From contig CAKZQZ010000003.1 in assembly GCA_937142855.1 (NCBI GenBank), positions 1 through 48,806 on the forward strand: a DNA stretch of 48,806 nt, read 5' to 3'. The notes beneath the pieces were generated by a model. It saw only the letters and a program-made list of their open reading frames with translations, was not told where the DNA came from and ran no database searches. The translations under genes were made by a program, and so were the position numbers. The DNA is from an uncultured Alphaproteobacteria bacterium. GTDB lineage: Bacteria; Pseudomonadota; Alphaproteobacteria; Puniceispirillales; Marisalimonadaceae. Below are positions 11,998-28,823 of the stretch, piece after piece (positions within the stretch are counted from its first letter, which is position 1; the number at the start of each line of letters is the position of its first letter).

Positions 11998-13254
11998 TCA
12001 TAAGTTTTGGTCAAACCATTGGCCAAGCCTTCCAAACTTATTAAAAAAATTAGAATTATCGTTAAGCGCAATTGTAAGATTTTCTTCTTCTAGGCTCTTT
12101 ATCAACAAACCTACTAAACAAGAAAAAGTTGGGTTCTCTACAATTTCTGGTAAATCATTAATAATATTCACAGGGTAGCCAATCCTAGCATTTTTTTTAA
12201 AATATAAATTAGTAAGATGTTTTATATCATTCAGGTTTGCGCCTCCTCCACATAGAATAATTGTTTCAATATCTTCAGTGATAGATAGAACTGATAGTCT
12301 ATTTTTTATTAAATCAAAGATCTCTTCAATTCTTGGCTTGATCATAGCAGTAAGCATTGCCTTTGGAATTATTTGGCTTCTTATTTTACCATCGTCAGAA
12401 ATAATTGGTGCATCTATATTTTGATATTCGTCAATCTCATTAGAAATCACTGAGCCATGTAAGATTTTTAGTTTTTCCGCATCTTCTGCTTTGCAACCTA
12501 ATCCTCTAACAATATCACTTGTTATATGGACACCCCCAATGGGGATGGTATCTGAAAAAATTATATTATTATTTTTGAAAATCCCTACGCTAGTTAAGTT
12601 ACCTCCAAGATCAATTACAATAGCTCCATTTTTCTTTTCCTCCTGAACGACGCTAGCTATACCAGAAGCTTCAGGTGTTATTATAAAATTTTCTACCTTG
12701 AGATGGCATAAATTTATAGCGTTGGTAATATTTTTTAAAACTGAATCTTCTGCATAGGTATAAGTCATATCAAGGATTAATTTTCGTGCATGCAATCCTA
12801 TAGGATTATCTACAGGCATAAAATTATCGATATAAAATTTTATTAAACTAGAAGATAATAATTTGTAATTATCAATTTTTTTAGGAATATTTTCTTTTTG
12901 AATTTTAATTATATCGCTTTTTAATATCTGTTGATTTTGAATTGTAATTTCGTTTCTAAAAACTTTTGTAATAGGTCTTCCACCAGAAATATTACAAGTT
13001 ACTTTATTTATAGAAAAACCGGCCATTGCTTCTGCACCCTCGACGGCTCTTGCAATTGAGTTTGCTATTTCTTTCATATTAGTTATTTTGCCACTCATAA
13101 TTCCTTGTGACACATGTTGTCCGAAACCTATAACCTTTGGTTGTAATTGCTTGTTTTTATCAGTTGTACCTATGAGACAACAAACCTTACTGTTACCAAT
13201 ATCTATAACAGTATGCATATTTCCGTTTGTTTTAATTTTCTTCATAATAGTCAT
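11998..13254 (-). CDS. ftsA: Cell division protein FtsA
   Basis: Actin-like ATPase that ties FtsZ filaments to the inner membrane and recruits later division proteins. The 418 residues contain the actin-type phosphate 1 motif DIGNSKVCCLIG near residue 18, the 1C subdomain, phosphate 2 motif VIDLGGNLTSVG and the adenosine motif ILCGGGANL. The C-terminal amphipathic membrane anchor reads GRLGQWFDQNL, the usual alphaproteobacterial form. The ATG overlaps the ftsQ stop as ATGA (13251-13254), suggesting translational coupling. A second in-frame ATG three codons later could also serve. Confidence 0.96.
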   Translation of the reverse strand: MTIMKKIKTNGNMHTVIDIGNSKVCCLIGTTDKNKQLQPKVIGFGQHVSQGIMSGKITNMKEIANSIARAVEGAEAMAGFSINKVTCNISGGRPITKVFRNEITIQNQQILKSDIIKIQKENIPKKIDNYKLLSSSLIKFYIDNFMPVDNPIGLHARKLILDMTYTYAEDSVLKNITNAINLCHLKVENFIITPEASGIASVVQEEKKNGAIVIDLGGNLTSVGIFKNNNIIFSDTIPIGGVHITSDIVRGLGCKAEDAEKLKILHGSVISNEIDEYQNIDAPIISDDGKIRSQIIPKAMLTAMIKPRIEEIFDLIKNRLSVLSITEDIETIILCGGGANLNDIKHLTNLYFKKNARIGYPVNIINDLPEIVENPTFSCLVGLLIKSLEEENLTIALNDNSNFFNKFGRLGQWFDQNL

Positions 13255-14087
13255 GAACTTTTCCTATTAATAATTAGTCCCTTATCAAAGTTTATTTTTC
13301 CTAAAATTTGCTTTGAATTTCTAAGGTCTATTTCAGTAAGCCCAAGATTTAAAATATTGTATTTTTGATTCAGTTTTGCAGCTAATTTCCAAGCTTCGGT
13401 AGGGTTCTTACTTGGCAAACGAATTACTAATCCTTGTTTAAAATGTAAATCCCATCTTCTCATATTGATATATGATAATGACCAAATTTCATTAGCCATA
13501 GATTTGTTTGTTTTCAGTATATCTAGAATTTCTATAATGTTTTGGTCAATATTTTCTCCTTTGATGATAGGAAGCTTATTTTTAAAAACATTAAAATTAT
13601 AATCAGATATTAAAACGCCTTCTTTTGTTAAAATATTATTACCTTTTTTATTTTGCCATATGGCAATGGGTTCATTCTCTATTAAACTAACTTTAATTTT
13701 ATTGGGCATAACTCTTTTTAGATGAACACTTTTGATCCAGTTGTATTTTGAAATTTCTTTATGAATTCTATTTAAATCAACAGTGAAGATACTCACAGCT
13801 TTATAATTTTCAAAAACATTATGTATTTTTGTGTTGGATAAATATTTTGTTCCATGAATATCTATATGATTAATGGAGAAACCTAATTTAACTAAAAAAT
13901 TGTTAAATATTTTTGTTTGTGTATCAAACTTCTCAGATTCAAAATTTTTAAAAACTATAATGGTGATTAAAATCAGAAGGATAATCGATATGGCTAAATA
14001 ATAAAAATTTTTAAATTTATTTGATATAGAAAGATATTTCATACCAGTTTTAGATAAATTATGAAATTCAAGCTTAAGTGCTAACAT
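13251..14087 (-). CDS. ftsQ: Cell division protein FtsQ (DivIB)
   Basis: Bitopic inner-membrane division protein that links the cytoplasmic ring to the periplasmic FtsBL complex. The 278 residues have a short cytoplasmic tail, one transmembrane helix (about 29-46), a POTRA domain (about 71-142, starting IDIHGTKYLS and containing ISKYNWIKSVHLKR) and a beta-rich FtsQ domain. Sequence similarity is modest, as expected for FtsQ, but the topology and the position between ddl and ftsA settle the call. It overlaps ddl by 7 bases and ftsA by 4. Confidence 0.93.
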   Translation of the reverse strand: MLALKLEFHNLSKTGMKYLSISNKFKNFYYLAISIILLILITIIVFKNFESEKFDTQTKIFNNFLVKLGFSINHIDIHGTKYLSNTKIHNVFENYKAVSIFTVDLNRIHKEISKYNWIKSVHLKRVMPNKIKVSLIENEPIAIWQNKKGNNILTKEGVLISDYNFNVFKNKLPIIKGENIDQNIIEILDILKTNKSMANEIWSLSYINMRRWDLHFKQGLVIRLPSKNPTEAWKLAAKLNQKYNILNLGLTEIDLRNSKQILGKINFDKGLIINRKSS

Positions 14088-15004
14088 TCGTAATCCGCCT
14101 CTTCAATAAGAGTTGTAACCATTTCTTCAAAGCTAATACCACAATATAATGCTTGTTCTGGAGAAAGAGATGTATCTGTCATACCTGGTTGTGTATTTAA
14201 CTCTAATAGATACAGTTGCTTGTTTTTATGATCATACCTGAAATCGCTTCTTGAAATACCTTTGCACCCAATTATATCATGGGCTTTTAAAGCCCAAGAC
14301 ATTGATTGTTCATAGATATTTGTGGGTATCTTTGCGGGAATTCTATGTAATGATCCGTTCTTTTCATACTTTGCGTTATAATTATAGAAAGCTTCATTTT
14401 TTTGAGCTTCAATTTCAGTAACACACAACGGTTTGTCTTTAAGAACAGTAACAGTAAGCTCTTTAGAACCCACATAAATTTCTGCCATTAATTCTTTATA
14501 ATTCAATGTTAATGAAGACTCTTTAATAGGATCCTTTATAATTTTAACCCCAACTGAACTGCCACCTTTTATTGGTTTAATAATGTATGGATCAGAAAAC
14601 TCTTTATTGTGTAATTTACCTTCAGGAGTAAGTTTCAAAGTTTCAGGAAAGCATATAGGATCGGTAGTATTCTCTGTTGCATTAGTGATAATTCTTTTGA
14701 AATGTATTTTATTCATAGCAATAGCCGAAGCTTCTACACCTGAATGAGTATAAGGTAACTTAAGTAAATTTAAGAAACCCTGTAATGATCCATTTTCACC
14801 AATATCTCCATGTAAAGCATTAAAGCAAACATCAGCTTTAATATTAACTAAATCGACAATTTTCATGGTAGCAATATCAAATTCAGTTACTTTAAAATTA
14901 GCTTTTCTTAAAGTTTTTGCACAAATATCAGCAGATTTAAGAGACACTTCTCTTTCAGAACCATATCCTCCTTTTACTAACAAAACATGCATTTTGTTTT
15001 TCAT
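14081..15004 (-). CDS. ddl: D-alanine--D-alanine ligase
   Basis: ATP-grasp ligase that joins two D-alanines, giving the dipeptide added by MurF. Visible motifs are the N-terminal GGYGSEREVS, the HGDIGENGSLQG segment, the substrate loop PIKGGSSVGV and the metal site LELNTQPGMT near the C-terminus. The frame is open to a TTG at 15037, inside murB. ATG 15004 lies next to the murB stop and needs no 31-base overlap, and an ATG four codons later is also possible because conserved sequence starts at MHVLLVKGG. The length from 15004 is 307 residues, normal for Ddl. The gene sits in its usual place between murB and ftsQ. Confidence 0.95.
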   Translation of the reverse strand: MKNKMHVLLVKGGYGSEREVSLKSADICAKTLRKANFKVTEFDIATMKIVDLVNIKADVCFNALHGDIGENGSLQGFLNLLKLPYTHSGVEASAIAMNKIHFKRIITNATENTTDPICFPETLKLTPEGKLHNKEFSDPYIIKPIKGGSSVGVKIIKDPIKESSLTLNYKELMAEIYVGSKELTVTVLKDKPLCVTEIEAQKNEAFYNYNAKYEKNGSLHRIPAKIPTNIYEQSMSWALKAHDIIGCKGISRSDFRYDHKNKQLYLLELNTQPGMTDTSLSPEQALYCGISFEEMVTTLIEEADYEC

Positions 15005-15006
15005 CC

Positions 15007-15888
15007 TCACTTTATACCAACCCTTTGTATTTCCCAATCCAACCTTATTCCAGATTTTTCAAAAACTTTGTCTTGAACCATTTGAGCTAGTTCTTCAATT
15101 TCTTGAGATGTTGATTTCTTAAGATTTATTATAAAATTACAGTGTTTTTCTGAGATCATAGCATCTCCATTTTGAAGACCCCTACAACCTGCTTCATCTA
15201 TAAGTTTCCATGCCTTTTTATTGATTGGGTTTTTAAAAGTACTGCCACCGGTCTTAACTGCTGTTGGTTGGGCTTCTTTTCTTAAATGGATTATTCTTCT
15301 CATCTTAGTTGTTATTTTATCTTTTGAATCTTTGGAACTCTTGAATCGTGCTTCATAAAAAATCCATTCTTTACTAAGGCCAATTTTTCTATATCCCATT
15401 TGTAATTCTTTATTAGAAAATGTTTTAATTTCTCCTAAATTATTTATTGCTTTTACATCTATTAATATGTCCTTAAATTCAGCACCAAAAGCTCCTGAAT
15501 TCATCTTTATACCACCACCAATTGTTCCTGGAATCCCAACTAAAAACTCTAACCCTGTTCTTTCTTGATCTCTTGCAAATCGTGCAACATCAGCATCTAC
15601 TGCTCCGGCTTGTGCGGTTATAACTCCAAAGTTGTCAATACTAATTTGATTAAGTTTTTTAGTTATTAATGTAATTCCTTTAATACCCTTGTCACTAACT
15701 AGGATGTTTGAACCTGCTCCAATTGGATAAATTTCATATTTCTTTGGTTTTGATTTTAATAAACCAATTAGATCTTTGATATCTTCCGGTACAAAAAGTA
15801 TTTCAGCATTCCCACCTACGTTAAACCAATTGTGTTTTGATAATGTTTGGTTTAGCGTTACCGATTTATTAAATTTACTTAAGTTCAT
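15007..15888 (-). CDS. murB: UDP-N-acetylenolpyruvoylglucosamine reductase MurB
   Basis: FAD enzyme that uses NADPH to reduce UDP-GlcNAc-enolpyruvate to UDP-MurNAc. The 293 residues show the FAD-binding pattern: NWFNVGGNAE near the N-terminus, YPIGAGSNILV, and PGTIGGGIKMNSGAFGAE. The catalytic serine lies in GGSTFKNP, and the final helix region reads GIRLDWEIQRVG with the expected glutamate. SEKHCNFIIN is a slight variant of the usual HANFI motif. This is the short type II-like form without the long insertion of the E. coli protein. It overlaps murC by 14 bases. Confidence 0.96.
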   Translation of the reverse strand: MNLSKFNKSVTLNQTLSKHNWFNVGGNAEILFVPEDIKDLIGLLKSKPKKYEIYPIGAGSNILVSDKGIKGITLITKKLNQISIDNFGVITAQAGAVDADVARFARDQERTGLEFLVGIPGTIGGGIKMNSGAFGAEFKDILIDVKAINNLGEIKTFSNKELQMGYRKIGLSKEWIFYEARFKSSKDSKDKITTKMRRIIHLRKEAQPTAVKTGGSTFKNPINKKAWKLIDEAGCRGLQNGDAMISEKHCNFIINLKKSTSQEIEELAQMVQDKVFEKSGIRLDWEIQRVGIK

Positions 15889-17269
15889 TATTCAAATTTT
15901 CTTCGAGTTTGTTAGCAATTTTTGTGATTGAACCAGCACCTAGACATATGATTATATCGTTTGGTTTAATTATTTTTAAGAGTGTCTTGGCTATATCTTT
16001 TTCATTTTTGATGTATGAAACATTTTTATGCCCATATTTGTACAATCCATTTTCTAGATCAATACTTTCAAATTTATTAATTAATTTCTCTCCAGCAGGA
16101 TAAACATCAAGTAAAAAAACATGATCTGCATCATTGAAACAACTACAGAATTCATCAAATAAATCTCTTAAACGAGTGTATCGATGGGGTTGAAAAATAC
16201 TTACAATTTTATTGTTTGGTGCCATTAGCCTTGATGCAGCTAGTGCTGAGCTTATTTCAACTGGATGATGACCATAATCATCTATTATTAACGTATTCTT
16301 AAAATTGCCAACTCTTTGAAATCTTCTTTCAACACCTGTAAAGTCTTTTAATGTTTCCCTTATTTTTTGCAATGGGATTTTTAACTCAATCCCTACAGCA
16401 ATTGTGGCTAACGCGTTTTGTATATTGTGATTACCTACCATTGAAAACTCTATTTCAAAATTTTCTGAGACTGGACTGTGTAAAATAAATTTCATTTTAT
16501 TATTTTTGTATGAAATATTGCTTGCCCTGACATCAGCATTTGCAGACAACCCATACGTAATAATTTTTTTATTATCTAACTTTGAAATTAGTTTTTGGAC
16601 TCTTGGGTGATCAATACAAAGACAAGCAAATCCATAAAATGGTATTGACAATACAAAATTTTGAAAGGCTTCTTCTAGATTTTTTTCTGTTTTATGAAAA
16701 TCTAAATGTTCTAAATCTATATTAGTAATCACGGCAGCTGTTGGGTTTAACTTTGCAAAACTTCCATCACTTTCATCGGCCTCTACAACCATCCATTCGC
16801 CATTTCCTAATTTTGCGTTACTATCTAAAGAAGAAATAATTCCACCATTAATAATAGTTGGATCCATTCCATTTTCTTCTATCATCTTTGCGATTAAAGA
16901 CGTGGTTGTTGTTTTTCCATGTGTTCCAGCTATAGCAATAGATTGTTTTAATCGCATTAATTCTCCTAGCATTTCCGATCTATGTACAATTGGTATAAAT
17001 AACTTCTTGGCAGCTTTTAATTCTTTGTTAGTTTCAGAAATTGCGGAAGAGACAACTATAATCTTAGCATTTACTATATTTGATTTTTTTTGTTCTAAAT
17101 AAATTTTTATTCCTAGTTTTTTTAATCTATCGGTATTTTTATTTTGACTAATATCACTACCTTGAACAAGGTATCCTGATTGGAATAATATTTCTGCAAT
17201 CCCACTCATTCCAATGCCGCCAATACCAATAAAATGTATTATTCCTAAATTTTGTGGACTCCTTAACAT
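15875..17269 (-). CDS. murC: UDP-N-acetylmuramate--L-alanine ligase MurC
   Basis: Mur ligase that adds L-alanine to UDP-MurNAc in the cytoplasm. The 464 residues give the three Mur-ligase domains. The N-terminal Rossmann-like part has HFIGIGGIGMSG at 12-23, specific for MurC. The central ATPase has GTHGKTTTT at 115-123, and the EADESDGSF segment is diagnostic for MurC rather than MurD/E/F. The C-terminal domain includes QPHRYTR. It overlaps murG by 7 bases upstream and murB by 14 downstream, consistent with coupled translation. Confidence 0.97.
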   Translation of the reverse strand: MLRSPQNLGIIHFIGIGGIGMSGIAEILFQSGYLVQGSDISQNKNTDRLKKLGIKIYLEQKKSNIVNAKIIVVSSAISETNKELKAAKKLFIPIVHRSEMLGELMRLKQSIAIAGTHGKTTTTSLIAKMIEENGMDPTIINGGIISSLDSNAKLGNGEWMVVEADESDGSFAKLNPTAAVITNIDLEHLDFHKTEKNLEEAFQNFVLSIPFYGFACLCIDHPRVQKLISKLDNKKIITYGLSANADVRASNISYKNNKMKFILHSPVSENFEIEFSMVGNHNIQNALATIAVGIELKIPLQKIRETLKDFTGVERRFQRVGNFKNTLIIDDYGHHPVEISSALAASRLMAPNNKIVSIFQPHRYTRLRDLFDEFCSCFNDADHVFLLDVYPAGEKLINKFESIDLENGLYKYGHKNVSYIKNEKDIAKTLLKIIKPNDIIICLGAGSITKIANKLEENLNNELK

Positions 17270-18438
17270 GGTTTTGTAACTTCCTCGTTTGTATCAAAAT
17301 CTTTTTTTATTATGAGGTCAGTTAAAAAATCTGTAGATGTTTTATTATTTAACAATTTAGTAAGTTTATTTGAAAGTTTGTTTAATTTCTTGTTAGCCTC
17401 AATAAGCTTGTGAGGATTTATAAAAAGATTGTTTATTAGTTTTTTTAATTCGCTAATTTTATTTTTTCCTTCATCAAAAATCCATCCACCACTATTTTTT
17501 ATATACAGAGCATTTTCTAATTGATGGTTATCTAGAGAGTTAGAAAGTGGAACTAGGATTGCAGGTTTTTTTGACGCAATTATTTCAGCAACAGTCGATC
17601 CACCTGCTCTGGTTATTACCAGATGAGCTAGTTTAAATTTTGTAAATATATTGTTAAAAAAAACACTTATTTCACAATCAATTTTATTTTGAATATACTT
17701 ACCTTGAACTTTATCAATGTCTTCTTTTCTAACCTGTTGGATTATTTTAACTCTTTTTTTTATGTGCTCAGGCATAGAACAAATGATTGATGTGAGGTGT
17801 TCTGAAAAAAAACTAGCACCGAGGCTACCCCCATATATTAATACATGGAACTTATCTTCATTATTAGGAATTGCATACTTACTTTTACCGATATCAAAGA
17901 ATTCACCCCTAACTGGATTCCCTGAATAAATAAAATTTTTGTTGTTGGAAACATTTTTTGTATTTTCAAAAGATAAAGCTAAAATATTAGAAATAGTACT
18001 GAGTAATTTATTTGCTCTACCTATAACTGCATTTTGTTCGTGTATAATTGTAGTTATACCAAATATTTTGGCTGCTAAAACTGGTGCGACTGAAGGATAT
18101 CCTCCAAACCCTAGAACTCTGGTTGGTCTATATTTTATAATTAACAAAATTGATTTAATAAAAGATAAAACAAAATAAAAAAGTGACTTTAGTTTATTAA
18201 TAATTAATTGATTGCTCGGGCTAATAACCTTGTGAGCATGAACTAAAATATTAATATTCTTTTCATTTAAAAATTTAGTAAAATAGTCCTTTCCTCTTAA
18301 ATCTGTGATTACAATATGTTTATCAAACTTTTCTTTGTTTATAATTGATAGGGCAGGGTAGATATGTCCTCCAGTTCCACCTGCTGCAATTAATATTACC
18401 TTTTTATTATTTATTTTTTTCATTTTATTATTTTTCAT
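17263..18438 (-). CDS. murG: Lipid II synthase MurG
   Basis: GT-B glycosyltransferase (UDP-GlcNAc:undecaprenyl-PP-MurNAc-pentapeptide transferase) at the inner face of the cytoplasmic membrane, which turns lipid I into lipid II. Residues 20-25 are GGTGGH, the N-terminal glycine-rich loop. GFGGYPS and HEQNAVIGRANK follow, then GGSLGA, and RAGGSTVAEI marks the UDP-GlcNAc site. Of the two possible starts, ATG 18438 has AAGG about 8 bases upstream, while ATG 18423 has nothing, so I keep 18438, which overlaps ftsW by 11 bases. Length 391 is slightly long for the family (about 355-370) because of the basic N-terminal extension. Confidence 0.96.
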   Translation of the reverse strand: MKNNKMKKINNKKVILIAAGGTGGHIYPALSIINKEKFDKHIVITDLRGKDYFTKFLNEKNINILVHAHKVISPSNQLIINKLKSLFYFVLSFIKSILLIIKYRPTRVLGFGGYPSVAPVLAAKIFGITTIIHEQNAVIGRANKLLSTISNILALSFENTKNVSNNKNFIYSGNPVRGEFFDIGKSKYAIPNNEDKFHVLIYGGSLGASFFSEHLTSIICSMPEHIKKRVKIIQQVRKEDIDKVQGKYIQNKIDCEISVFFNNIFTKFKLAHLVITRAGGSTVAEIIASKKPAILVPLSNSLDNHQLENALYIKNSGGWIFDEGKNKISELKKLINNLFINPHKLIEANKKLNKLSNKLTKLLNNKTSTDFLTDLIIKKDFDTNEEVTKPC

Positions 18439-19558
18439 TAAAATGCCTTGTGAATGGTTCTAATGAATTATTAGTTCTTGTTAGAGAAAGGAGCATACCA
18501 GCAGTAATCGCTGATGCTAATATAGAAGACCCACCGTATGATAAAAAAGGTAGCGTCATCCCTTTGGTAGGAATGAGATCTGTATTACTTGCCATGTGTA
18601 TAAGTGATTGGAAGCCGAATTGAAAAGCTAGACCACTCACAGCTAAGATCAAAAATAAATTATTAATTTTGAGAGTATATAAAAATGATCTTAGTATAAC
18701 TAATCCATAAATCATTATAATAATGCTGCATATTAGAACGCCATACTCTTCAGCAGCCACAGCATAAACGAAATCTGAATGAGCATCAGGTAAAGATTTT
18801 TTGTATAGACCTTCTCCTGGGCCTTTACCTAAGAGACCACCCGATTCAAAAGATTGTAATGATTTTGATACTTGGTATGTTGTTCCCTCAATAAAACCGT
18901 CTATTCTAATTTTAACGTGATCGAAATTGTGATAAGAGATAATCATAAAAATAGGGAATGATATTATTAGAACAATAATAATTATAAGTGGGATTCCTGT
19001 AATAAATAATTGAAAAGCCCATGTAAATATCAATAAAATAGTCATTCCCAAATCTGGTTGTAATAATAAAAGTGCTGAAATTAAGCTTATTGAACAAATA
19101 GACCAAACCCAGCCTGGAAAATTCTTTTTTTCTGCCCACAATGATAAAATCCAAGCATTAAAAATTATAAAAAAAGGTTTACATACCTCACTTGGTTGGA
19201 AACTAAACTTTCCCATATAAAGCCATCTATGTGCTCCTTTTATTTTATCTCCGTCTATAACAGTTAAAAATAGTAGTAAAATAGATATTGCCAGTCCTAA
19301 AATACTTATAATTTTAATTTGCCTTTGATTTAAAATTGAGAAGATTATAATGATTGGAATACTCAGCGCTCCAAACAAAATATGCCTCAAAGTGAAATGA
19401 TGAGATGATAAATTAAGACTTTGTGTAATGTGTTGGCTAGAAGCCATCACCAAAAAGATACCAATTAAAATTAAAATAAAAAAACCTGTTAAAAGATATC
19501 TGTCTGTAGTCCACCACCACAAAGCAATATTTGATCTATCTGAACGAGTTATTATCAT
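18428..19558 (-). CDS. ftsW: Peptidoglycan glycosyltransferase FtsW
   Basis: SEDS-family polymerase that, with FtsI, makes septal glycan strands from lipid II. The 376-residue protein is highly hydrophobic with about ten predicted membrane spans. SEDS landmarks are KGAHRWLYMG, FSFQPSEVCKP and the large periplasmic loop before GLLGKGPGEG. DAHSDFVYAVAAEEYG contains the catalytic-region aspartate, and the C-terminus has PFLSYGGSS. The ATG overlaps the murD stop as ATGA (19555-19558). The position between murD and murG fits FtsW rather than RodA. Confidence 0.95.
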   Translation of the reverse strand: MIITRSDRSNIALWWWTTDRYLLTGFFILILIGIFLVMASSQHITQSLNLSSHHFTLRHILFGALSIPIIIIFSILNQRQIKIISILGLAISILLLFLTVIDGDKIKGAHRWLYMGKFSFQPSEVCKPFFIIFNAWILSLWAEKKNFPGWVWSICSISLISALLLLQPDLGMTILLIFTWAFQLFITGIPLIIIIVLIISFPIFMIISYHNFDHVKIRIDGFIEGTTYQVSKSLQSFESGGLLGKGPGEGLYKKSLPDAHSDFVYAVAAEEYGVLICSIIIMIYGLVILRSFLYTLKINNLFLILAVSGLAFQFGFQSLIHMASNTDLIPTKGMTLPFLSYGGSSILASAITAGMLLSLTRTNNSLEPFTRHFNEK

Positions 19559-20886
19559 TTTTTAATAACATCCTGATCAAATTTAAGATTAACAATTTTT
19601 TTGAAATAGTTCCCTCTATCCTCATAGTTTTTAAACTGATCAAAACTAGCGGCTGAAGGAGAGAATAAAATAACGCAATTCCTTAATTTACTTCTAATAA
19701 CACTCTCAATTGCGAGTAGCGTTGCTTTTTCTAATGTAAAACATGTATTTATTTTCAGTTCAGGGGCAATACTTTTTATTTCCTCTACAAAATAATTTAT
19801 TGAGTTACCTATTAAGAAAACTTCAACCACATTTGTTAAAAATTTTTGAGCTTGACCAATACCGTCTGATTTAGGTTTACCTCCTGCTATCCAAAATATA
19901 TTGTCAAATGAAGATAGAGCGGCAGCTGTAGATTCACCATTAGTAGATTTACTATCATTAATTATTTTAAATTTATTACAAATATATATGGGCTCCATTC
20001 TATGTGGCAAACCCTTGAAGGTCTTGATCGCTAACTTGATTTGAGAATCATTAATATTAAGTTTTTTTGCTAGTGTTATCGCAATTGAAGCATTTATAGA
20101 ATTATGATTTCCTTTCAGATAGTTGTTATCATTGACAAAACTCTTGCTAAAATTTTTATCTACTTCAAAAGATTTGGATGAAACACTGTTTTGAGATTTA
20201 ACTAATTTTTTTAAAAATTGATCGTTTTTATTTAAAACGAAGATTCCATTGATATTCAAACAACTAATAATTTTTAACTTGCTTGAAATGTATTTTTCAA
20301 AGGTTTCATGGAAATCTATATGATCTGGAGTGATGTTAATTATTGAAGCCAGGTCTAAATTTAATTTTTTTATTCCATCAAGTTGATAGCTTGATAGCTC
20401 AAGAATTATAACCCCTTTATTACCAGGATCATTTATAAGACATGCGGGGTACCCAAAGTTGCCACCAATTGCACACTTAACTTTATTGAAAGTTAATATA
20501 TGATATAAAAGAGATACTGTTGTTGATTTCCCATTTGTACCAGTTATGCCTACAATTTTGGCTTTAGGGTTTGTTTCAAAAAACAAATCAATCTCATTAA
20601 TAATTTTTACGTTGTGTTTAATGGCAAGTTCAACAGCCTCATGTTTGTCAAAATTATTAGTGGGTATACTTGGGCTGACTATTAAGGATATTAAGTTTTT
20701 CCATGGCCATTCTTTATAATTTTGCCAATGAGTTTTTTTTATAGATGATGGCCTTGGATTATTATCATCGAATATAAAAATATGTGCATTTGAATTAGCT
20801 AGAATTTCAGCTGCTGCCAAACCTGATTTTCCAGCCCCTAAAATTCCAACATGCTTATCTTTATAGTGTGCAATACTATTATTCAA
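19555..20886 (-). CDS. murD: UDP-N-acetylmuramoylalanine--D-glutamate ligase MurD
   Basis: Mur ligase that adds D-glutamate to UDP-MurNAc-L-Ala. The 443 residues contain an N-terminal Rossmann-like domain with GILGAGKSGLAAAE (14-27). The ATP loop GTNGKST is at 116-122, ELSSYQLD is typical of MurD, and NITPDHIDFH and the C-terminal DSKSTN motif follow. The end carries LFSPSAASFDQF, the classic MurD C-terminal signature. mraY ends 5 bases upstream and ftsW overlaps by 4 bases downstream. Confidence 0.97.
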   Translation of the reverse strand: MNNSIAHYKDKHVGILGAGKSGLAAAEILANSNAHIFIFDDNNPRPSSIKKTHWQNYKEWPWKNLISLIVSPSIPTNNFDKHEAVELAIKHNVKIINEIDLFFETNPKAKIVGITGTNGKSTTVSLLYHILTFNKVKCAIGGNFGYPACLINDPGNKGVIILELSSYQLDGIKKLNLDLASIINITPDHIDFHETFEKYISSKLKIISCLNINGIFVLNKNDQFLKKLVKSQNSVSSKSFEVDKNFSKSFVNDNNYLKGNHNSINASIAITLAKKLNINDSQIKLAIKTFKGLPHRMEPIYICNKFKIINDSKSTNGESTAAALSSFDNIFWIAGGKPKSDGIGQAQKFLTNVVEVFLIGNSINYFVEEIKSIAPELKINTCFTLEKATLLAIESVIRSKLRNCVILFSPSAASFDQFKNYEDRGNYFKKIVNLKFDQDVIKK

Positions 20887-20891
20887 TTTTT

Positions 20892-21980
20892 TTACCTAAG
20901 TTTGAGTGTTGAAATGCCTATCAAAGCCAATATGACAGCTATTATCCAAAACCTGATTACAATTGTTGATTCAGCCCATCCTTTTTGTTCGAAATGGTGA
21001 TGCAATGGTGCCATTCGAAAAACTCGTTTGCCTGTAAGTTTGAACGATACAACTTGTACAATTACTGAGATAGTCTCTAAAACAAAAAGGCCTCCAATTA
21101 TGATTAGAACTAATTCATGTCTTGAAGCTGAGGCGCTTACGCCAATAACACCTCCTAATGACAGTGAACCAGTATCTCCCATAAACACCATTGCTGGAGG
21201 CGCATTAAACCATAGAAAACCTAACCCTGAACCAATTATTGCGCCCAAGAAAACTGTGATTTCTCCTACACCTGGGACATAATTTATTTGTAAATAATTT
21301 GAAAAATTCACATGACCAACTAAGTAAACAATAATAGCTAAGGATCCAGCTGCAATCATTACTGGTACAATTGCAAGTCCATCTAAACCGTCTGTTAAGT
21401 TTACAGCATTTGAAGAGCCTACTATTACTAAAATCGTAAAGGGTATATACAACACACCTATGAAAAACAAACCCTCTTTTAGGAAGGGTATAGATAAAGA
21501 GTTTTGATAAGTTCCAGGAGTATTTTCACCTATGAACCATGCTGCTAAAAAGGCAATAAAAATTTGTGGAATTATCTTTTGGTAACTTTTAAGGCCATTA
21601 CTTGTCATTCGTGAAACTTTAAGCCAGTCATCTAAAAGTCCAATTAAGCCAAAAGATAATGCAACGCCTAAAATTATCCAAATATATATATTATCTAATT
21701 TTGCCCATAAAATTGTTGAGATTGTAAAAGCCAATAATATCAGTAAGCCTCCCATTGTAGGTGTGCCACTTTTTAAAATTATATGATTTTTAGGACCATC
21801 AGAACGTATTGGTTGCCCTTTTTTTTGAAATTTTTTTAAAATCCATATAATTTTTTGTCCAAAGACTAAACTTATTACTAAGGCTGTTAATAGAGCACCT
21901 ATGCTTCTAAATGTAATATAATTAAATAAATTAAGGGGCTGAAAATAGTCTTTGTAATCAAGCAACAAATCAGGCAGCAT
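20892..21980 (-). CDS. mraY: Phospho-N-acetylmuramoyl-pentapeptide transferase MraY
   Basis: Ten-span inner-membrane enzyme that moves phospho-MurNAc-pentapeptide to undecaprenyl phosphate, forming lipid I. The 362 residues include the aspartate pair in GLLDDWLK, NLTDGLDGLA with the third catalytic aspartate, FMGDTGSLSLGG and the diagnostic histidine loop APLHHHFEQKGW. A GGAGAA ribosome site precedes the ATG inside the end of murF (11-base overlap). The gene is in the standard order murF-mraY-murD. Confidence 0.97.
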   Translation of the reverse strand: MLPDLLLDYKDYFQPLNLFNYITFRSIGALLTALVISLVFGQKIIWILKKFQKKGQPIRSDGPKNHIILKSGTPTMGGLLILLAFTISTILWAKLDNIYIWIILGVALSFGLIGLLDDWLKVSRMTSNGLKSYQKIIPQIFIAFLAAWFIGENTPGTYQNSLSIPFLKEGLFFIGVLYIPFTILVIVGSSNAVNLTDGLDGLAIVPVMIAAGSLAIIVYLVGHVNFSNYLQINYVPGVGEITVFLGAIIGSGLGFLWFNAPPAMVFMGDTGSLSLGGVIGVSASASRHELVLIIIGGLFVLETISVIVQVVSFKLTGKRVFRMAPLHHHFEQKGWAESTIVIRFWIIAVILALIGISTLKLR

Positions 21981-23388
21981 TATTATTCTCCTGATTAAAA
22001 TTTTGTAAAACTTTTACTAACTTCCAAAGGTTTGTTCCATTTGAACCTTTAATTAAGATTAATTGATTGGGTTTTACTATTTCCTTAATTTTTGATAGTA
22101 AATCATCAACGTTCAGGTATGAATAAGATTTGATTTTTAGTTCTTTACTTATTAACTGTGTGAAAGATCCTACAGTTATTAGTAAATTTGGATTTATTTT
22201 TTTTAATATGGGTATTAATTCTAAATGTTTAAGTTTAGCTTTTTTGCCTAATTCTAGCATGTCTCCTATTATTAAGACTGTTTCATAATTAATTAATTTT
22301 GATTTTATTTTATATAGATTGCATAATGATGCATACATAGAATCTGGATTTGCATTATAACTATCATCTATTAAAAGACTTTCTTGATTATTTTTAAAAT
22401 TTATTATTATTTTATGACCTCTTCCTGATAGAGGCTTTATACCAGATATAGTTTGTTTAGCAGTTTCTTGTGATAGTCCTAGTTCTCCTACAACTACCAA
22501 AGTTCCAACTGCATTCAATGCCTGGACTGAACTCATATATTTAAGATGCCAAGGTCTTTTGTTTTCTAAGAAAATTGTAGACCCATCTTTTTCATCAATT
22601 ATTTTGTTAATTCTCTGACTAGATTTTATAGTATGCCCATATAATTTTATGTTAGTTGTATATTTTTTTGCGTTTTCTTTAAGATAATCACACCAGGTGT
22701 TGTCTGAATTTATGATGGCTACTCCGTTTGCATTTAAGCCGATAAAAATTTCACTTTTAGCATTTGCTATTTCTTTTTCGCTCTTAAAATTCTCAATATG
22801 AGAACTCGATACATTTGTTATTAATGCAATATGAGGTTTTGAAATTAAAGTTAGCTCTTTAATTTCACCAGTATGGTTCATTCCAAGCTCTAGAACACAA
22901 AAAGCATATTCTTTAGGAAGTCTTGATAATGTTAAAGAAAGACCAATTATATTATTGTTATTACCATGCGTAAAGTGTGTTTTTCCAAACTCTTGAAGGG
23001 AAGTTGCTAAAATATGTTTGGTGCTTGTTTTCCCACTGCTTCCAGTAATTGCAATAACTTTTCCTGTAAATCTATTTCTAGAAAACTGTGCAATATTTAT
23101 TAATGCAATTTTTGTATCTTTTACAAATAGACCACTATATCTAAGTGCAATTTTTTTATCTGATACAATTACCCCTGAGGCTCCTTTTGATATCGCAGAG
23201 TTAATAAAATCATGACCATCATATTTATCACCTTTTATAGCAACGTATAAATCACCCTCTTTTATTGTTCTGTCATCTATACTTATTCCAAAAACATCTT
23301 TTTGATTTATTAGAAAATTAGATGAGGGGTCAGACCCATTGGTAGCGGTTATCAATTCTTTTTTTGTCCACAATAAGTTCAAAATCAA
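21970..23388 (-). CDS. murF: UDP-MurNAc-tripeptide--D-alanyl-D-alanine ligase MurF
   Basis: Last cytoplasmic Mur ligase; adds the D-Ala-D-Ala made by Ddl to complete the pentapeptide precursor. The 472 residues show the MurF N-terminal domain (ISIDDRTIKEGDLYVAIKG), the ATP loop GSSGKTSTK at 116-124, the ELGMNHTGEI segment typical of MurF, and DDSYNANPDSM. Its C-terminal domain contains ILIKGSNGTNLWKLV. The start ATG overlaps the murE stop as ATGA (23385-23388), pointing to translational coupling. Confidence 0.97.
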   Translation of the reverse strand: MILNLLWTKKELITATNGSDPSSNFLINQKDVFGISIDDRTIKEGDLYVAIKGDKYDGHDFINSAISKGASGVIVSDKKIALRYSGLFVKDTKIALINIAQFSRNRFTGKVIAITGSSGKTSTKHILATSLQEFGKTHFTHGNNNNIIGLSLTLSRLPKEYAFCVLELGMNHTGEIKELTLISKPHIALITNVSSSHIENFKSEKEIANAKSEIFIGLNANGVAIINSDNTWCDYLKENAKKYTTNIKLYGHTIKSSQRINKIIDEKDGSTIFLENKRPWHLKYMSSVQALNAVGTLVVVGELGLSQETAKQTISGIKPLSGRGHKIIINFKNNQESLLIDDSYNANPDSMYASLCNLYKIKSKLINYETVLIIGDMLELGKKAKLKHLELIPILKKINPNLLITVGSFTQLISKELKIKSYSYLNVDDLLSKIKEIVKPNQLILIKGSNGTNLWKLVKVLQNFNQENNNAA

Positions 23389-24890
23389 GCCTCAATTAAA
23401 TTCATAGTTTTTAAGGCTTCCTTAGCCACTGCATAATCATCAAACGGAAGCGTCTCTAGCCCAACAGTCTGCAAGGTTTCATGTCCTTTGCCGGCAATAA
23501 GCAAAAAATCGTTCATTTTTAATAATGATACAGCATGCTTTATGGCTTTGTTCCTATCGGGAATTTCAACTGCAGTAGGACTGCCGTTCAAAATATCACT
23601 TCTTATACCGGCAGGACTTTCGTTTCTAGGGTTGTCGTCAGTTACAATTATTAAATCAGAATACTCATGGGCTATCTTGCCCATTAATTTTCTTTTTCCC
23701 TTATCTCTATCGCCACCACAACCAAATAAAGTTATTAATTTACCATTAGCTTTTTTTATTTCTTTTAAAGATAACAGAACAGATTTTAATGCTTCAGGAG
23801 TATGAGCATAATCAATTATGATTGTTGAATTATGGTTTTCACCTGAAACAATCTCCATTCTCCCTCTAGCAGGTTTTAGATAGGAAAGTGACTTAAAAAC
23901 AAAACTTGGTTCCATTCCTAATGCGATACAAATTGAAGCAGATGCGATAACGTTATAGGCTTGAAATTTTCCAATCATTCCCAATGTTGCATCATAAATT
24001 TTATTTCTAAACTCAATTGATATTTTAAGTGTTTGATTATTATGTGTTATAGATTTAATTCTAATATTAGCTTTTTCATTTTCACCAAAAGTTAAAATTA
24101 GATGATTTTTTGATGCTATCTCTTCATATAGTTTTTTTCCAAATTCATTATCAATATTAATAGCAACCGCAGACTGTTTTTTTAGAATGTCCATAAAAAG
24201 TTTTTTCTTTGCAGAAAAATAACTTTGTATATTCCCATGATAATCCAGGTGATCACGAGAAAGATTTGTAAATATCGCTCCAGAAAATTTTATTCCGTCT
24301 AATCTAAATTGATCTAGACCATGTGAAGAAGCTTCAAGTGCTAGATGCGAGACATCATTTTGTGCCAGAAAATTTAAATTTTTATATAATTCATTTGGCT
24401 CAAATGTTGTTAATGAATTTTGTGATGAATTATAAACAGCATCACTTTGATGGGTTCCAACTTTGGTTCCAAGAGTTCCCATCGAGGCAGCTTTCCAACC
24501 AGCTTGAACCCAAATTTGTCTGCAAAACTCAACAGTAGAGGTTTTCCCATTAGTGCCTGTGACACCTATAATCACATTTGGTTGATTTTTATAATAAATA
24601 GATAGCAAAGTTGAATAAACTAGCCTTGAGGTTCCTTTAGTTATAGAAACGCAATTTTTCTTATTTTTATTTTCAGCTAGAATTAAAAAAGCACCTTTGC
24701 TCTTTGCTTCTTTAATAAAACTTTCTCCATCAAAGTTTTTTCCTTTTATTGCAACAAAAATATATCCTGATTTAATGTCTTTACTATTAGAAGATATTCC
24801 TTTGACTTCTTGATTTAATATTTGATGATCAAGGTGACCCAAAATATTAGTTAAAATTTTATTTTTTGACACTAATTCGCTTAAAATCAT
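23385..24890 (-). CDS. murE: UDP-MurNAc-dipeptide--meso-diaminopimelate ligase MurE
   Basis: Mur ligase that adds the third residue of the stem peptide. The 501 residues carry the ATP loop GTNGKTST at 112-119, EASSHGLDQ at 186-194, and DNPR at 419-422, the motif that marks meso-diaminopimelate rather than lysine as substrate. This cell wall is therefore expected to be of the usual Gram-negative DAP type. The N-terminal SSNSKDIKSGYIFVAIKG is the MurE/F-type uridine-binding domain. The gene follows ftsI after 2 bases and overlaps murF by 4. Confidence 0.97.
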   Translation of the reverse strand: MILSELVSKNKILTNILGHLDHQILNQEVKGISSNSKDIKSGYIFVAIKGKNFDGESFIKEAKSKGAFLILAENKNKKNCVSITKGTSRLVYSTLLSIYYKNQPNVIIGVTGTNGKTSTVEFCRQIWVQAGWKAASMGTLGTKVGTHQSDAVYNSSQNSLTTFEPNELYKNLNFLAQNDVSHLALEASSHGLDQFRLDGIKFSGAIFTNLSRDHLDYHGNIQSYFSAKKKLFMDILKKQSAVAINIDNEFGKKLYEEIASKNHLILTFGENEKANIRIKSITHNNQTLKISIEFRNKIYDATLGMIGKFQAYNVIASASICIALGMEPSFVFKSLSYLKPARGRMEIVSGENHNSTIIIDYAHTPEALKSVLLSLKEIKKANGKLITLFGCGGDRDKGKRKLMGKIAHEYSDLIIVTDDNPRNESPAGIRSDILNGSPTAVEIPDRNKAIKHAVSLLKMNDFLLIAGKGHETLQTVGLETLPFDDYAVAKEALKTMNLIEA

Positions 24891-24892
24891 CT

Positions 24893-26593
24893 TTATAAAT
24901 TTGCTCCCTTTTCTTTACCTCTTATTTCGTATTGAATAAGATTCTGAGAGAAGTTTAATGAATTTTCATTTTGTGGTTTTATATTTAATATAGGAGCAAT
25001 TCTTGTAACTAGCCTTTTTACTACTGGCGCTACAACCCATCCGGCTGTTCTATAACCATAAGAAAATTTCTGACCTTTTGGATTGTCGATCATTACGGTG
25101 ATTATAAATTGAGGATTATTTATTGGAAAGGCAGATGTAAAAGCTACAATATTTTGTTTTTTTAAGTAGCCTCCAGTTTTGCTTAGCTTTTCAGCGGTTC
25201 CAGTTTTGCCTCCAACCAAGTAACCCTTTGCTTCTGCTTTTTTTGCAGTTCCGTATTTACTTTTTACAACAAGTCTCATTATGCTTTTAATTTTATTTGA
25301 AGTATTTTTAGAAAAAACACGAGTATTTTTTTCCCTTGTTTTTGAAACAAAGAGAGTAGGGTTAACTTTGATACCGTTATTGACAAGCGTTGCAGTAGAC
25401 GAAGCTAGATGCATTGGCGTTATTGCTATTCCATGTCCGTAGGAAATAGTCATAGTAGAAAGTAATTTTCTGTCCATAAGGACCTGTGGTATCCCTACCT
25501 CAGGTATTTGCAGATCCATTTTATCCATAAACCCAAGCTTTCTTAGGTATTTTAGCTGTGTTGCCGAACCAAATTTTTCAGCAATCTTAGCTGATCCAAT
25601 ATTGCTTGAATGAACAATAACTTCAGGAATATTTATGGCGTAATTTAGAGGATGAAAATCTCGTATTGTTCTTGATGACACTCTTAAAGGACGTGAGACG
25701 TCAAAAACTTCGTTTTCTTCTACAAGTCCACTATCTAAAGCGATAGCAGCTGTAATTAATTTAAGGGTGGACCCAAGTTCATAAATCCCCTTTGTTGCTT
25801 TGTTAAACAGTAGTTCATCTGATACTTTACTATAGTTATTAACGTTGTAATCAGGCAATGATGTTATAGCATAAACTTCACCGTTTTTAGAGTTCATTAC
25901 TATTCCGGCACCACCTTCAGCTTCAAATTTATTAATCTGCTCAAATAAAATTTTTTCTGTGATGTGTTGAATTCCACTATGAATTGAAATTTTAATATTT
26001 TTACCGTTTTTTAATTGACTATCTAATGATTTTTCTATTCCAGCTATACCACTACCATCAACATCAGTGCTTCCTAAAATATGTGCAGCCAAATTATTGT
26101 TCGGGTATATTCTTTTATGTTTGACCCTTATTTTTAGTCCCTCAATACCCTCATTCAAAAGTAATACGTGCTCTTTTGGAGAAATTTCTCTGAGTATATT
26201 TACGAATTGCTTTTTAGAATCTAATTTTGTTTTTAAAGCTACTTCATCTAATTGAGGAAAAATTTCAAGCAGTTTCTCTATTGTGTTTTTTTTGTTTAAC
26301 ACCTCTTGTGGATTTATATTTAAACTTGATGTGCTGATTGTTGTTGCTAGTAATTCTTTATTTCGATCATAAATGTTTCCACGTGTTAAATTTTTATTGA
26401 GATCTGATTTAATAGTCTTAAAAGAAATATTAGCAGGGTTGGGTTTAGTAATACCTGCCAAAGATATTGTTCTATAACCAATAGTCATGAAAGAAAACAG
26501 AAACAAACTACCACACATCAATAATTTAATTTTTCTAAATTTTGTGTTGCTCCTTACTACTAGTGCGCTTTTGAAGTTAATTAAACTTTTCAT
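24893..26593 (-). CDS. ftsI: Septal peptidoglycan transpeptidase FtsI (PBP3)
   Basis: Class B penicillin-binding protein that cross-links septal peptidoglycan in the periplasm, paired with FtsW. The 566 residues have one N-terminal transmembrane helix (about 24-43), then RGNIYDRN at 71-78 of the pedestal domain. The transpeptidase motifs are SxxK at 275-278 (S275 acyl nucleophile, K278), SSN at 329-331 and KTGT at 463-466. The C-terminus has YGYRTAGWVVAPV, typical of the family. The ATG overlaps the ftsL stop as ATGA. No PASTA domain is present. Confidence 0.97.
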   Translation of the reverse strand: MKSLINFKSALVVRSNTKFRKIKLLMCGSLFLFSFMTIGYRTISLAGITKPNPANISFKTIKSDLNKNLTRGNIYDRNKELLATTISTSSLNINPQEVLNKKNTIEKLLEIFPQLDEVALKTKLDSKKQFVNILREISPKEHVLLLNEGIEGLKIRVKHKRIYPNNNLAAHILGSTDVDGSGIAGIEKSLDSQLKNGKNIKISIHSGIQHITEKILFEQINKFEAEGGAGIVMNSKNGEVYAITSLPDYNVNNYSKVSDELLFNKATKGIYELGSTLKLITAAIALDSGLVEENEVFDVSRPLRVSSRTIRDFHPLNYAINIPEVIVHSSNIGSAKIAEKFGSATQLKYLRKLGFMDKMDLQIPEVGIPQVLMDRKLLSTMTISYGHGIAITPMHLASSTATLVNNGIKVNPTLFVSKTREKNTRVFSKNTSNKIKSIMRLVVKSKYGTAKKAEAKGYLVGGKTGTAEKLSKTGGYLKKQNIVAFTSAFPINNPQFIITVMIDNPKGQKFSYGYRTAGWVVAPVVKRLVTRIAPILNIKPQNENSLNFSQNLIQYEIRGKEKGANL

Positions 26594-26895
26594 TTAGGCA
26601 CTCTTGCATTAATAGATTTTGTTGCCTCAACTAAATCTTTTAAATTCCAAATATCAGTCGGTAGAATTTCTTTTAGTTCTAGTTTAGTTAAAGCAATTTT
26701 CTCTATCCTATCTGGTCGTTTTAGGTAGCTAAGTTCAGCATTTAAAATTTCTAAATCAGATTTTGCATTAACTATTTTTGTTTTAATTGTTTTTAGTGCC
26801 ACCTCATTTTGTGTGATAAAAAATTTAATTTGGTATAATGAAATTCCAACCACAACAATTAAAAAAACCACAAGAAAAGAAGGGTACCTAATCAT
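26590..26895 (-). CDS. ftsL: Cell division protein FtsL-like
   Basis: Small bitopic division protein expected to pair with FtsB and FtsQ. The 101 residues have an N-terminal transmembrane helix (about 6-24) followed by a heptad-like coiled coil (about 30-60) and the region SYLKRPDRIEKIALTKLELKEI. In alphaproteobacterial FtsL-type proteins the family ends with such a 'RIE..A...L' segment. Sequence similarity is low across this family, so the call rests on size, topology and position between rsmH and ftsI. It is joined to both neighbours by ATGA overlaps. Confidence 0.85.
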   Translation of the reverse strand: MIRYPSFLVVFLIVVVGISLYQIKFFITQNEVALKTIKTKIVNAKSDLEILNAELSYLKRPDRIEKIALTKLELKEILPTDIWNLKDLVEATKSINARVPK

Positions 26896-27845
26896 TCTTC
26901 ATCTCCAAAATATGATGGAAAATTTGTTCTTCTTGCAACTCGCAATTTAGCTGATCTTGATCGTTTGTTTCTTTCTATTTCTTTTGATGATGGGGATATG
27001 GGTTTTCTTGTTATGATTTCGAGGCTATTTTTTCTTTCGTTCTTTTCAGGTAAATATCGTGATGTTGACTGATTGTTAGAACATTTTATAAAAAATTCTT
27101 TTATAATCCTGTCTTCAATTGAATGAAAAGAAACAACTGCTAATATACCATCTGGTTCAAGTGATTTTTCAGCAGCGATTAGCCCTTTTTCTAACTCATA
27201 TATTTCATTATTGAGATATATTCTTATGGCTTGAAAAGTTCTTGTGGCAGGGTCAATTTTTTGTTTTGAGAACGGAATTGACTTCCTGATAATTGTAGCT
27301 AACTGACCTGTGCTATTAATTCTATTCGTTAATCTCTCATAGGCTATATTTTTGGCTATTCTTCTTGAGAAAACCTCGTCACCATATTCATATATGATAT
27401 TAGCTAATGTTTTTTCCTCTACTTTATTTATGAACTCTTCTGCTGTAGGGCCTTCAAGTGACATTCTCATGTCCAATGGACCATCTAATTTAAATGAAAA
27501 TCCTCTTTCTTTTGTATCAATTTGCGGACTGGAGACGCCCAGATCAAAAACTATACCATTAACTTTATTTATATTGGTTTCTTTTAAATATTTTAGTAAT
27601 TCTGAAAATTTTCCATTTATAAAGGTAAATTTATTTTCAAAAGTTGATTTGATAGGGGCAGCAAATTCTTTTGCTTGTGGGTCTCTATCAATAGCTAATA
27701 GACTACAATTACATTTATTTAGGATTTCTCTAGAATACCCTCCCAAACCAAACGTTGCATCTACGTAAATACCTTCGTCTTTTAATGATAATGCATTTAT
27801 CGTTTCATTGAGAAGAACAGGGGTGTGTTGAGTGCAATTTAACAT
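26892..27845 (-). CDS. rsmH: 16S rRNA m4C1402 methyltransferase RsmH (MraW)
   Basis: SAM-dependent methyltransferase that makes N4-methyl-C1402 in the decoding centre of 16S rRNA. The 317 residues start with QHTPVLLNETINAL and have the SAM loop DATFGLGGYS at 29-38. GIVFDLGVSSPQID, RGFSFKLDGPLDMRM, TFQAIRIYLNNE and SFHSIEDRIIKEF follow, together the family fingerprint. The end KLRVARR is also typical. mraZ ends 8 bases upstream, and the rsmH stop overlaps ftsL as ATGA. Confidence 0.97.
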   Translation of the reverse strand: MLNCTQHTPVLLNETINALSLKDEGIYVDATFGLGGYSREILNKCNCSLLAIDRDPQAKEFAAPIKSTFENKFTFINGKFSELLKYLKETNINKVNGIVFDLGVSSPQIDTKERGFSFKLDGPLDMRMSLEGPTAEEFINKVEEKTLANIIYEYGDEVFSRRIAKNIAYERLTNRINSTGQLATIIRKSIPFSKQKIDPATRTFQAIRIYLNNEIYELEKGLIAAEKSLEPDGILAVVSFHSIEDRIIKEFFIKCSNNQSTSRYLPEKNERKNSLEIITRKPISPSSKEIERNKRSRSAKLRVARRTNFPSYFGDEE

Positions 27846-27853: not shown

Positions 27854-28303
27854 CTACTCAGTTTTCTTATTAAGGATTAATTTTGGAGGTCCTTTTTCTT
27901 CAAGAATTTTTTGTGATTTTTTATATTGCTTTTCATATTCTTTAGGGCACCATATATAAAAAGATTCACCTATACCCATAAATACAGCTTTATTTGAAAG
28001 CTCTGCAAAATTCATAAGAGTTTCAGGAATCACAATTCTTCCGCTAGCATCAAATTTTGTTTCAAAAGAGTCAGCCATCATCATCCGTAAAACAAATGCT
28101 TCGTCGGACATGGCATCCAATTCGTCAATGGCGTTTATGTATCTTTGCATTCTACTAAAAGAAGTGCCTTCTAAGCATTTGAATTGAAGACTTTTAAATA
28201 AAATAAGCTGTTCGTCTGATTTTTCTAAAAAAAATCTGTATGCTGCAGGAATTGAAACTCTACATTTTAAATCAATCTTATTATGTGAAGTTGATAAAAA
28301 CAT
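27854..28303 (-). CDS. mraZ: Transcriptional regulator MraZ
   Basis: DNA-binding protein at the head of the dcw cluster; in E. coli it represses its own operon by binding repeated TGGGN boxes. The 149 residues contain two SpoVT/AbrB-like halves, each with the D-x-x-x-R-x-x-x-P pattern: IDLKCRVSIPAAYR near residue 10 and FDASGRIVIPETL near residue 80. The first has cysteine where glycine is usual. It is the first gene of a minus-strand block that runs to ligA. Repeats resembling MraZ boxes lie in the leader and promoter region (28408-28453). Confidence 0.95.
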   Translation of the reverse strand: MFLSTSHNKIDLKCRVSIPAAYRFFLEKSDEQLILFKSLQFKCLEGTSFSRMQRYINAIDELDAMSDEAFVLRMMMADSFETKFDASGRIVIPETLMNFAELSNKAVFMGIGESFYIWCPKEYEKQYKKSQKILEEKGPPKLILNKKTE

Positions 28304-28407
28304 CGACTTTAAGGACCCTAAGTTAAAAGTGATATGACTAGGATTTGCACTATTATTTAATTCAGAATTCTAACCTAAACAGTTTTCACTATTAAAAAGG
28401 GATATCA

Positions 28408-28453
28408 TGGTATTTTATGGGAGTCAATGGTAATTTGCGTGTGTAATATGGTA
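28408..28453. promoter_or_regulatory. Candidate MraZ operator: four TGGKA boxes
   Basis: On the plus strand TGGTA is at 28408-28412, TGGGA at 28418-28422, TGGTA at 28428-28432 and TGGTA at 28449-28453. Each is preceded by A. The first three start exactly 10 bases apart, i.e. 5-base boxes with 5-base spacers, the architecture reported for E. coli MraZ (TGGGN repeats). The fourth is 21 bases on and touches the predicted -10 box of the mraZ promoter. Relative to mraZ the boxes read on the opposite strand. Confidence 0.55.
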
Positions 28454-28481
28454 TTATATTTAGATATTGAAATAATTTTAA
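28453..28481 (-). promoter_or_regulatory. Candidate mraZ/dcw promoter
   Basis: On the minus strand TTAAAA (28481-28476) and a perfect TATAAT (28458-28453) are separated by 17 bases. Transcription would start near 28446, leaving a leader of about 140 bases before the mraZ ATG. It begins directly downstream of the RNase P RNA 3' end. TTGACT at 28427-28422 is a second possible -35 but lacks a good -10. Confidence 0.5.
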
Positions 28482-28482
28482 G

Positions 28483-28823
28483 TGTCAGAGAGCAATAAGC
28501 CGGGTTTTGTATCAAAAATTGATAGTAGTTATTAATCTTGAGAATTTGTTACCAAATTCTTCTAGCGACCTACCCAAGAAACTTTGTAGAAATTCAAAAA
28601 ATGTTCCTTCTATTTGGTCTTGCTCTAGGTGGGGTTTACCATGCCGTTTCTATTACTAAAAACGCGGTGCGCTTTTACCGCACCTTTTCACCCTTACCAA
28701 AATTGGCGGTATTTTTTCTGTGGCACTTTCCCTAGGGTCGCCCCCGCTGGATGTTATCCAGCACCTTATTCCTATAGAGCCCGGACTTTCCTCTTTAAAA
28801 AGCAACTACCTTACTCTCTGACT
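28483..28823 (-). ncRNA. rnpB: RNase P RNA, bacterial type A
   Basis: Catalytic RNA of RNase P, which trims tRNA 5' leaders. Read on the minus strand, the ends form a perfect 9-pair P1 helix, GTCAGAGAG (28822-28814) with CTCTCTGAC (28492-28484). The conserved core is clear: GAGGAAAGTCCGGGCTC (28793-28777), the AAACCCCACC and GAGCAAGACCAAATA segments (28637-28611), TGGGTAGGTCGC before 28570, and ACCCGGCTTAT near the 3' end (28505-28495). At about 340 bases it is compact. It lies between the ABC-F gene and mraZ, its usual alphaproteobacterial position. The exact ends are inferred from P1. Confidence 0.96.

Follow-up and report, generated by a model that had tools for sequence, protein, structure and literature searches.

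Inverted candidate MraZ boxes interlocked with a conserved promoter ahead of the dcw genes in Alphaproteobacteria

In the 48,806-nucleotide stretch of DNA analysed here (the window), which is SAR116-like alphaproteobacterial, a five-base box recurs every 10 bp between rnpB and mraZ. This raises the question of whether the boxes form an operator for MraZ, the presumed regulator encoded just downstream, and of how boxes that read against mraZ could serve that purpose. The genes concerned are as follows:

28481..28821, minus strand: rnpB (RNase P RNA; Rfam RF00010, 310.5 bits), upstream of the array and on the same strand as mraZ
27854..28303, minus strand: mraZ, heading the operon and presumed to encode its regulator (Pfam PF02381, 67 bits; cut-off 23)
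9300..27845, minus strand: dcw genes, with the best-match names rsmH, ftsL, ftsI, murE, murF, mraY, murD, ftsW, murG, murC, murB, ddl, an unnamed ORF, ftsA, ftsZ and lpxC
13251-14087, minus strand: the unnamed ORF, occupying the usual place of ftsQ
Down to 4664, minus strand: same-strand run beyond lpxC, with bamD, recN and ligA

mraZ is the first of a run of 20 same-strand ORFs (from 27854-28303 to 4664-6703), among which ftsW and murG owe their names to best hits scoring below the NCBIfam cut-offs, and terminator-like sites within 9000-28300 are no commoner (five found) than in shuffled sequence (mean of 7.6). The window's MraZ is a divergent member of its family. Its best stretch against PF02381 is the C-terminal half only, and it scores below the NCBIfam MraZ equivalog cut-offs (111.6 bits vs 162 at best; 73.5 vs 98.35 for TIGR00242), which are thresholds for naming and not defining traits; automatic annotation may therefore overlook this gene. 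Two D-x-x-x-R motifs characterise the MraZ family, and both are retained (D11/R15 and D85/R89). Eight positions, mostly conservative changes, set the protein apart from 24 or more of the 26 congeners.

No clear terminator was found after rnpB in the window, so that rnpB transcripts reading through could bypass the operator. S. meliloti likewise has rnpB (positions 1-376 of locus L221) immediately before mraZ and in the same direction, and for Pelagibacter a table in the accessible part of PMC2704228 also puts the RNase P RNA next to mraZ; the rnpB-mraZ pairing may be old in Alphaproteobacteria.

On the plus strand between the two genes, TGGTA at 28408, TGGGA at 28418 and TGGTA at 28428 follow each other at steps of exactly 10 bp, as the original prediction had it. 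Its count of four boxes held in part: the TGGTA that it placed at 28449 exists, but lies 21 bp, not 10, from the nearest box of the array and was ruled out as a member of the run by this spacing, and an in-phase box at 28398-28402 (AGGGA) had been overlooked. The individual sites are:

28428..28432, plus strand: box 1, TGGTA (ACCAT on the mraZ strand); congeners have CCCAT in 26/26
28418..28422, plus strand: box 2, TGGGA (CCCAT on the mraZ strand); congeners have CCCAT in 6/26, ACCAT in 17/26 and another sequence in 3/26
28408..28412, plus strand: box 3, TGGTA (ACCAT on the mraZ strand); congeners have CCCAT in 26/26
28398..28402, plus strand: box 4, AGGGA (CCCTT on the mraZ strand), in register with the other three; congeners have CCCAT in 25/26 and CCCGT in 1/26
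28449..28453, plus strand: TGGTA, candidate accessory site outside the 10-bp run

A single TGGKA is frequent in the window (174 matches vs a mean of 155 in shuffles); three of them at exact 10-bp steps occur at just one place there, and 100 shuffles that preserved dinucleotides produced no instance; a relaxed four-box pattern likewise gave one place and 0/100 shuffles.

An MraZ match was obtained in 78 of 101 genomes, comprising the own genome and those of its genus, family and order. mraZ was detected in 26 congeners, and every one of them has the array at the corresponding position, its boxes mostly reading TGGGA (CCCAT on the mraZ strand), so the proposed check of conservation upstream of mraZ in relatives came out in favour of an operator. 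In the genus alignment the array is the best-conserved intergenic block, its 40 bp being 93-99% conserved vs 53-89% for the remaining blocks. Across the order, the strict three-box pattern is present in 43 of the 101 genomes, with 54 of the 60 places listed adjoining an mraZ match and six lying elsewhere (one each in G022, G060, G082, G088, G093 and G098); a control pattern yielded no place in the same 101 genomes. An array-like three-box hit in G082 (G082:C134:12498-12520) comes from a genome that yielded no MraZ match, possibly owing to a contig break or a missed gene. Within the own genome, the relaxed pattern picks out the array (two overlapping hits) and a single other place, on contig C90, which was judged to be due to chance; a regulon beyond the dcw genes was accordingly dropped. 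Lying upstream of mraZ, with at least three direct TGGG-type repeats at 10-bp steps and conservation in relatives, the array shows these sequence features of MraZ operators and, placed ahead of the co-directional dcw genes, it is very probably the MraZ operator that was predicted.

The original prediction had further proposed a changed box, TGGTA/TGGGA, together with a predicted -10 box, TATAAT, touched by the 28449 box; the promoter concerned would be TTAAAA-17-TATAAT at 28481-28453. Three of the four window boxes do deviate from the genus norm: with two TGGT variants among the four (ACCAT, CCCAT, ACCAT, CCCTT), they are the poorest of 27 genus sequences, matching four copies of CCCAT at 17 of 20 positions vs 18-20 in the 26 congeners. 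The proposed promoter matches 10 of 12 consensus positions, and 25 of 26 congeners have a counterpart of the 28449 box, an ACCAT with no more than one mismatch that is located 19-21 bp upstream of box 1. However, congeners carry CCCAT (= ATGGG) in boxes 1, 3 and 4, and because a TGGT variant, ACCAT (= ATGGT), is already a normal variant of box 2 (17 of 26), a changed specificity is unsupported and was rejected as the main reading; the eight positions peculiar to the window's MraZ, mostly conservative changes, also argue against it, and a changed affinity for the boxes is conceivable. TATAAT occurs in 4 of 27 genus sequences, window included, and was rejected on conservation; promoter-like sites of this kind are about equally common in shuffled sequence (four found, mean of 2.8). 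Taken as a whole, a changed box beside a TATAAT promoter is very unlikely, and the 28449 box is a conserved out-of-run site in the genus, possibly an accessory one.

The promoter that is conserved throughout the genus, TTGACT-17-TATCCC (27/27 sequences), lies inside the array:

28422..28427, minus strand: -35 hexamer TTGACT, between boxes 1 and 2; TTGAC in 27/27 genus sequences
28399..28404, minus strand: -10 hexamer TATCCC, overlapping box 4 and 17 bp from the -35; 27/27 genus sequences
28391, minus strand: predicted transcription start, giving a leader of about 88 nt, placed by the -10-to-start spacing of S. meliloti

The common genus form on the mraZ strand is CCCA-TTGACT-ACCATAAAAT-CCCATGT-TATCCCAT, and in the window a TG stands one base upstream of the -10, as in an extended -10. 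The boxes overlap the -35, the spacer and the -10 of this promoter, with the -35 set in the first inter-box gap, the TG of the extended -10 drawn from box 3 and the -10 itself from box 4.

Under a loose rule (TTGA and then, in phase, at least two of the four boxes), the TTGAC-17/18-TATCCC interlock was found in 152 of 171 alphaproteobacterial loci and failed in 19, a proportion that, like those for orientation below, is not a random-sample estimate, because the loci were taken by HMM rank, hand choice or best score. Among the 152, TTGAC is exact in 140, TATCCC in 134, and a TG precedes the -10 in 148. In a phase control that required three of the four boxes, with five shuffles per locus, TTGA fell at 17 bp in 58 and at 18 bp in 16 of the 77 loci within the order, and at any other phase in at most 6; the 94 loci outside the order gave 47, 28 and at most 4, respectively. 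Shuffles, which in this control and in the orientation analysis preserve base composition only, produced two hits per set, and the summed counts of five control 4-mers reached at most 10 loci at any single phase of the class set. The in-array promoter model also fits a mapped start: the accessible text of PMC5089854 gives the S. meliloti mraZ leader as 170 nt and, in strain Ak57 (L221), whose -10 lies at 609-614, such a leader implies a start at 622, seven bases later, if the annotated start codon is the same.

It had been pointed out that boxes on the plus strand, with mraZ and rnpB on the minus strand, would have to be reconciled with the orientation known from E. coli. The conflict is resolved by an inversion relative to E. 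coli that extends to the Alphaproteobacteria sampled. Scoring the best three-box array on each strand, we found CCCA on the mraZ strand in 167 of the 171 alphaproteobacterial loci (165 strong), the other four being three weak ties and one weak opposite call. Among 41 loci of other bacteria (30 loci plus 11 named records, covering Gamma- and Betaproteobacteria, Bacillota, Bacteroidota and Actinomycetota), the best array was TGGG in 38, E. coli included (30 strong and 8 weak), with three ties and the CCCA orientation in 0/41. Strong arrays appeared in 1.4% of 2,120 shuffles, and counts of box pairs 10 bp apart agree with the orientation (150 vs 2 in the class set, n = 69; 4 vs 22 outside the class, n = 30). 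For the class-level set, 89 loci were selected by HMM rank or by hand, one source search having matched 164 genomes, and the 30 non-alphaproteobacterial loci are the best-scoring of 71 such genomes with a match; the start codons of loci other than the named records were placed by a purpose-built HMM and are approximate. L054 was left out because its upstream DNA was too short; L001, L081-L118 and L148-L150 were left out as repeats of other loci or pattern hits.

In a loose scan of 32 strong non-alphaproteobacterial loci, 29 had a first box beginning no earlier than the final base of the best promoter-like -10, the exceptions being L159 and two actinobacterial loci, and an E. coli-like placement downstream of the -10 was rejected for the alphaproteobacteria sampled. 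In actinobacterial L226 (Nonomuraea) and L254 (Microbacterium), the boxes overlap a promoter-like -10 in the E. coli orientation; with a promoter-like -10 inside these arrays, the notion that interlocking is unique to alphaproteobacteria was dropped. What the sequences show, in sum, is an array phased at 10 bp, conserved in relatives, inverted relative to E. coli across the Alphaproteobacteria sampled and held in fixed phase to TTGAC and TATCCC.

With a probability of roughly 80%, the boxes constitute an MraZ operator interlocked with the main dcw promoter, through which MraZ would repress mraZ itself and the dcw genes; binding and repression we infer from the layout of the DNA. A ring-shaped MraZ oligomer (an octameric ring is mentioned in the accessible text of PMC7761207) would place adjacent DNA-binding units on successive boxes, which, being one helical turn apart, share a face of the DNA. 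Units sitting over the -35, the spacer and the -10 would keep RNA polymerase off, and the promoter would fire when MraZ is scarce. Because mraZ is the first gene of the operon, MraZ would act as an autorepressor, holding down its own gene together with the dcw genes that follow. The same bases would serve both as promoter and as MraZ boxes, unlike the E. coli array, which follows just after the -10. Covering the core promoter is the most likely way for MraZ to repress its own dcw operon, as far as binding, repression and reach along the operon can be deduced from the arrangement of sites, and repression of the whole gene block is plausible on the same grounds.

Bound MraZ might instead activate transcription or merely fine-tune it. 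MraZ is an activator in M. gallisepticum. The accessible text of PMC8475190 links filamentation in an MraZ study of that species to raised FtsZ; the same text reports MraZ boxes and repression in E. coli and a rise of dcw genes upon mraZ deletion in M. genitalium. Activation or fine-tuning is improbable for an array that takes up the -35, the spacer and the -10, where a bound protein would be expected to exclude polymerase, and the repression reported for E. coli and M. genitalium speaks against it too. It is more improbable still that MraZ does not read the repeats, which would then be chiefly sequence of the promoter and its spacer, or else a site for some other regulator. TTGAC and TATCCC are conserved as much as the boxes, and the mraZ upstream region of R. 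sphaeroides is a target of CenR binding (PMC9275681, accessible text); however, boxes also lie outside both hexamers, running at 10-bp steps to four in the genus and up to five in the order, and an asymmetric TGGGA-type box is found upstream of mraZ in other phyla without such a promoter arrangement. Since CenR binds there, and since the accessible part of PMC10469942 counts agrobacterial mraZ as one of the genes that have secondary start sites, the in-array promoter and MraZ may not be the sole promoter and regulator of mraZ.

An MraZ operator fused with the promoter would also bear on the long mraZ leaders of Rhodobacteraceae. Four Rhodobacteraceae-like loci (L228-L231, from G118, G230, G391 and G407) share a long mraZ leader with a strong hairpin, located behind a worn CCCAT array. 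In G118, whose cytochrome oxidase is closest to PDB entries of Paracoccus and Rhodobacter, the worn array lies where the mraZ promoter is expected and the predicted leader is 265 nt. No in-phase TTGA was found with the worn arrays of L229-L231, and no Rfam family matched the four long leaders. The leader of these loci resembles that described for UpsM: in R. sphaeroides, mraZ is transcribed from one upstream promoter, with a UpsM/mraZ leader of 268 nt, according to the accessible text of PMC5089854, in which no mention of an MraZ operator was found. That UpsM-like long leaders follow a worn CCCAT array in L228-L231 suggests an old MraZ-type promoter as the origin of UpsM.

The balance tips slightly towards a wider proposal, namely that an inverted MraZ operator whose bases are at the same time those of the dcw promoter is common to Alphaproteobacteria, that MraZ acts there by direct promoter occlusion, and that the same element controls the abundant small RNA UpsM in Rhodobacteraceae. 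MraZ is a widespread bacterial regulator, and class-wide inversion together with promoter fusion would provide a precise, testable model of dcw switching that would cover rhizobia, Rhodobacter relatives and marine SAR116 bacteria; it would imply that MraZ is able to work in either orientation relative to its gene.

The MraZ operator of the E. coli dcw operon was reportedly described by Eraso et al. in 2014. A literature search with most subscription journals outside its reach returned, in the texts accessible, descriptions of MraZ operators from E. coli, Burkholderia and mycoplasmas, and none of an alphaproteobacterial MraZ operator, of its inversion or of its fusion with a promoter. E. coli MG1655 resembles the window in having three asymmetric TGGGA-type boxes at 10-bp steps upstream of mraZ; its boxes, however, lie on the mraZ strand and start 8 bases past the best -10 match, whereas those of the window lie on the opposite strand, overlapping the promoter from its -35 through the spacer to its -10, and show neither the strand nor the position downstream of the -10 that mark the E. 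coli type. In Burkholderia, MraZ binds a fragment upstream of mraZ in gel shifts, and the boxes, like those of E. coli, are stated to be downstream of the -10 (PMC7761207, accessible text). B. cenocepacia shares the 10-bp period upstream of mraZ, with four repeats of 7 nt separated by 3-nt spacers; its site, like that of E. coli, lies past the -10 and covers the start, whereas the window array is inverted and within the core promoter (PMC7761207). Mollicutes likewise have direct repeats at the mraZ promoter, where alone the motif occurs in M. genitalium, but their box, AAAGTG[T/G], is unlike that of the window (PMC8475190, accessible text). Finally, R. sphaeroides UpsM, as far as the available description goes, shares a single upstream mraZ promoter, at whose expected place the Rhodobacteraceae-like genome G118 has the worn array, but it has a long leader there, whereas that of the window is short by prediction.
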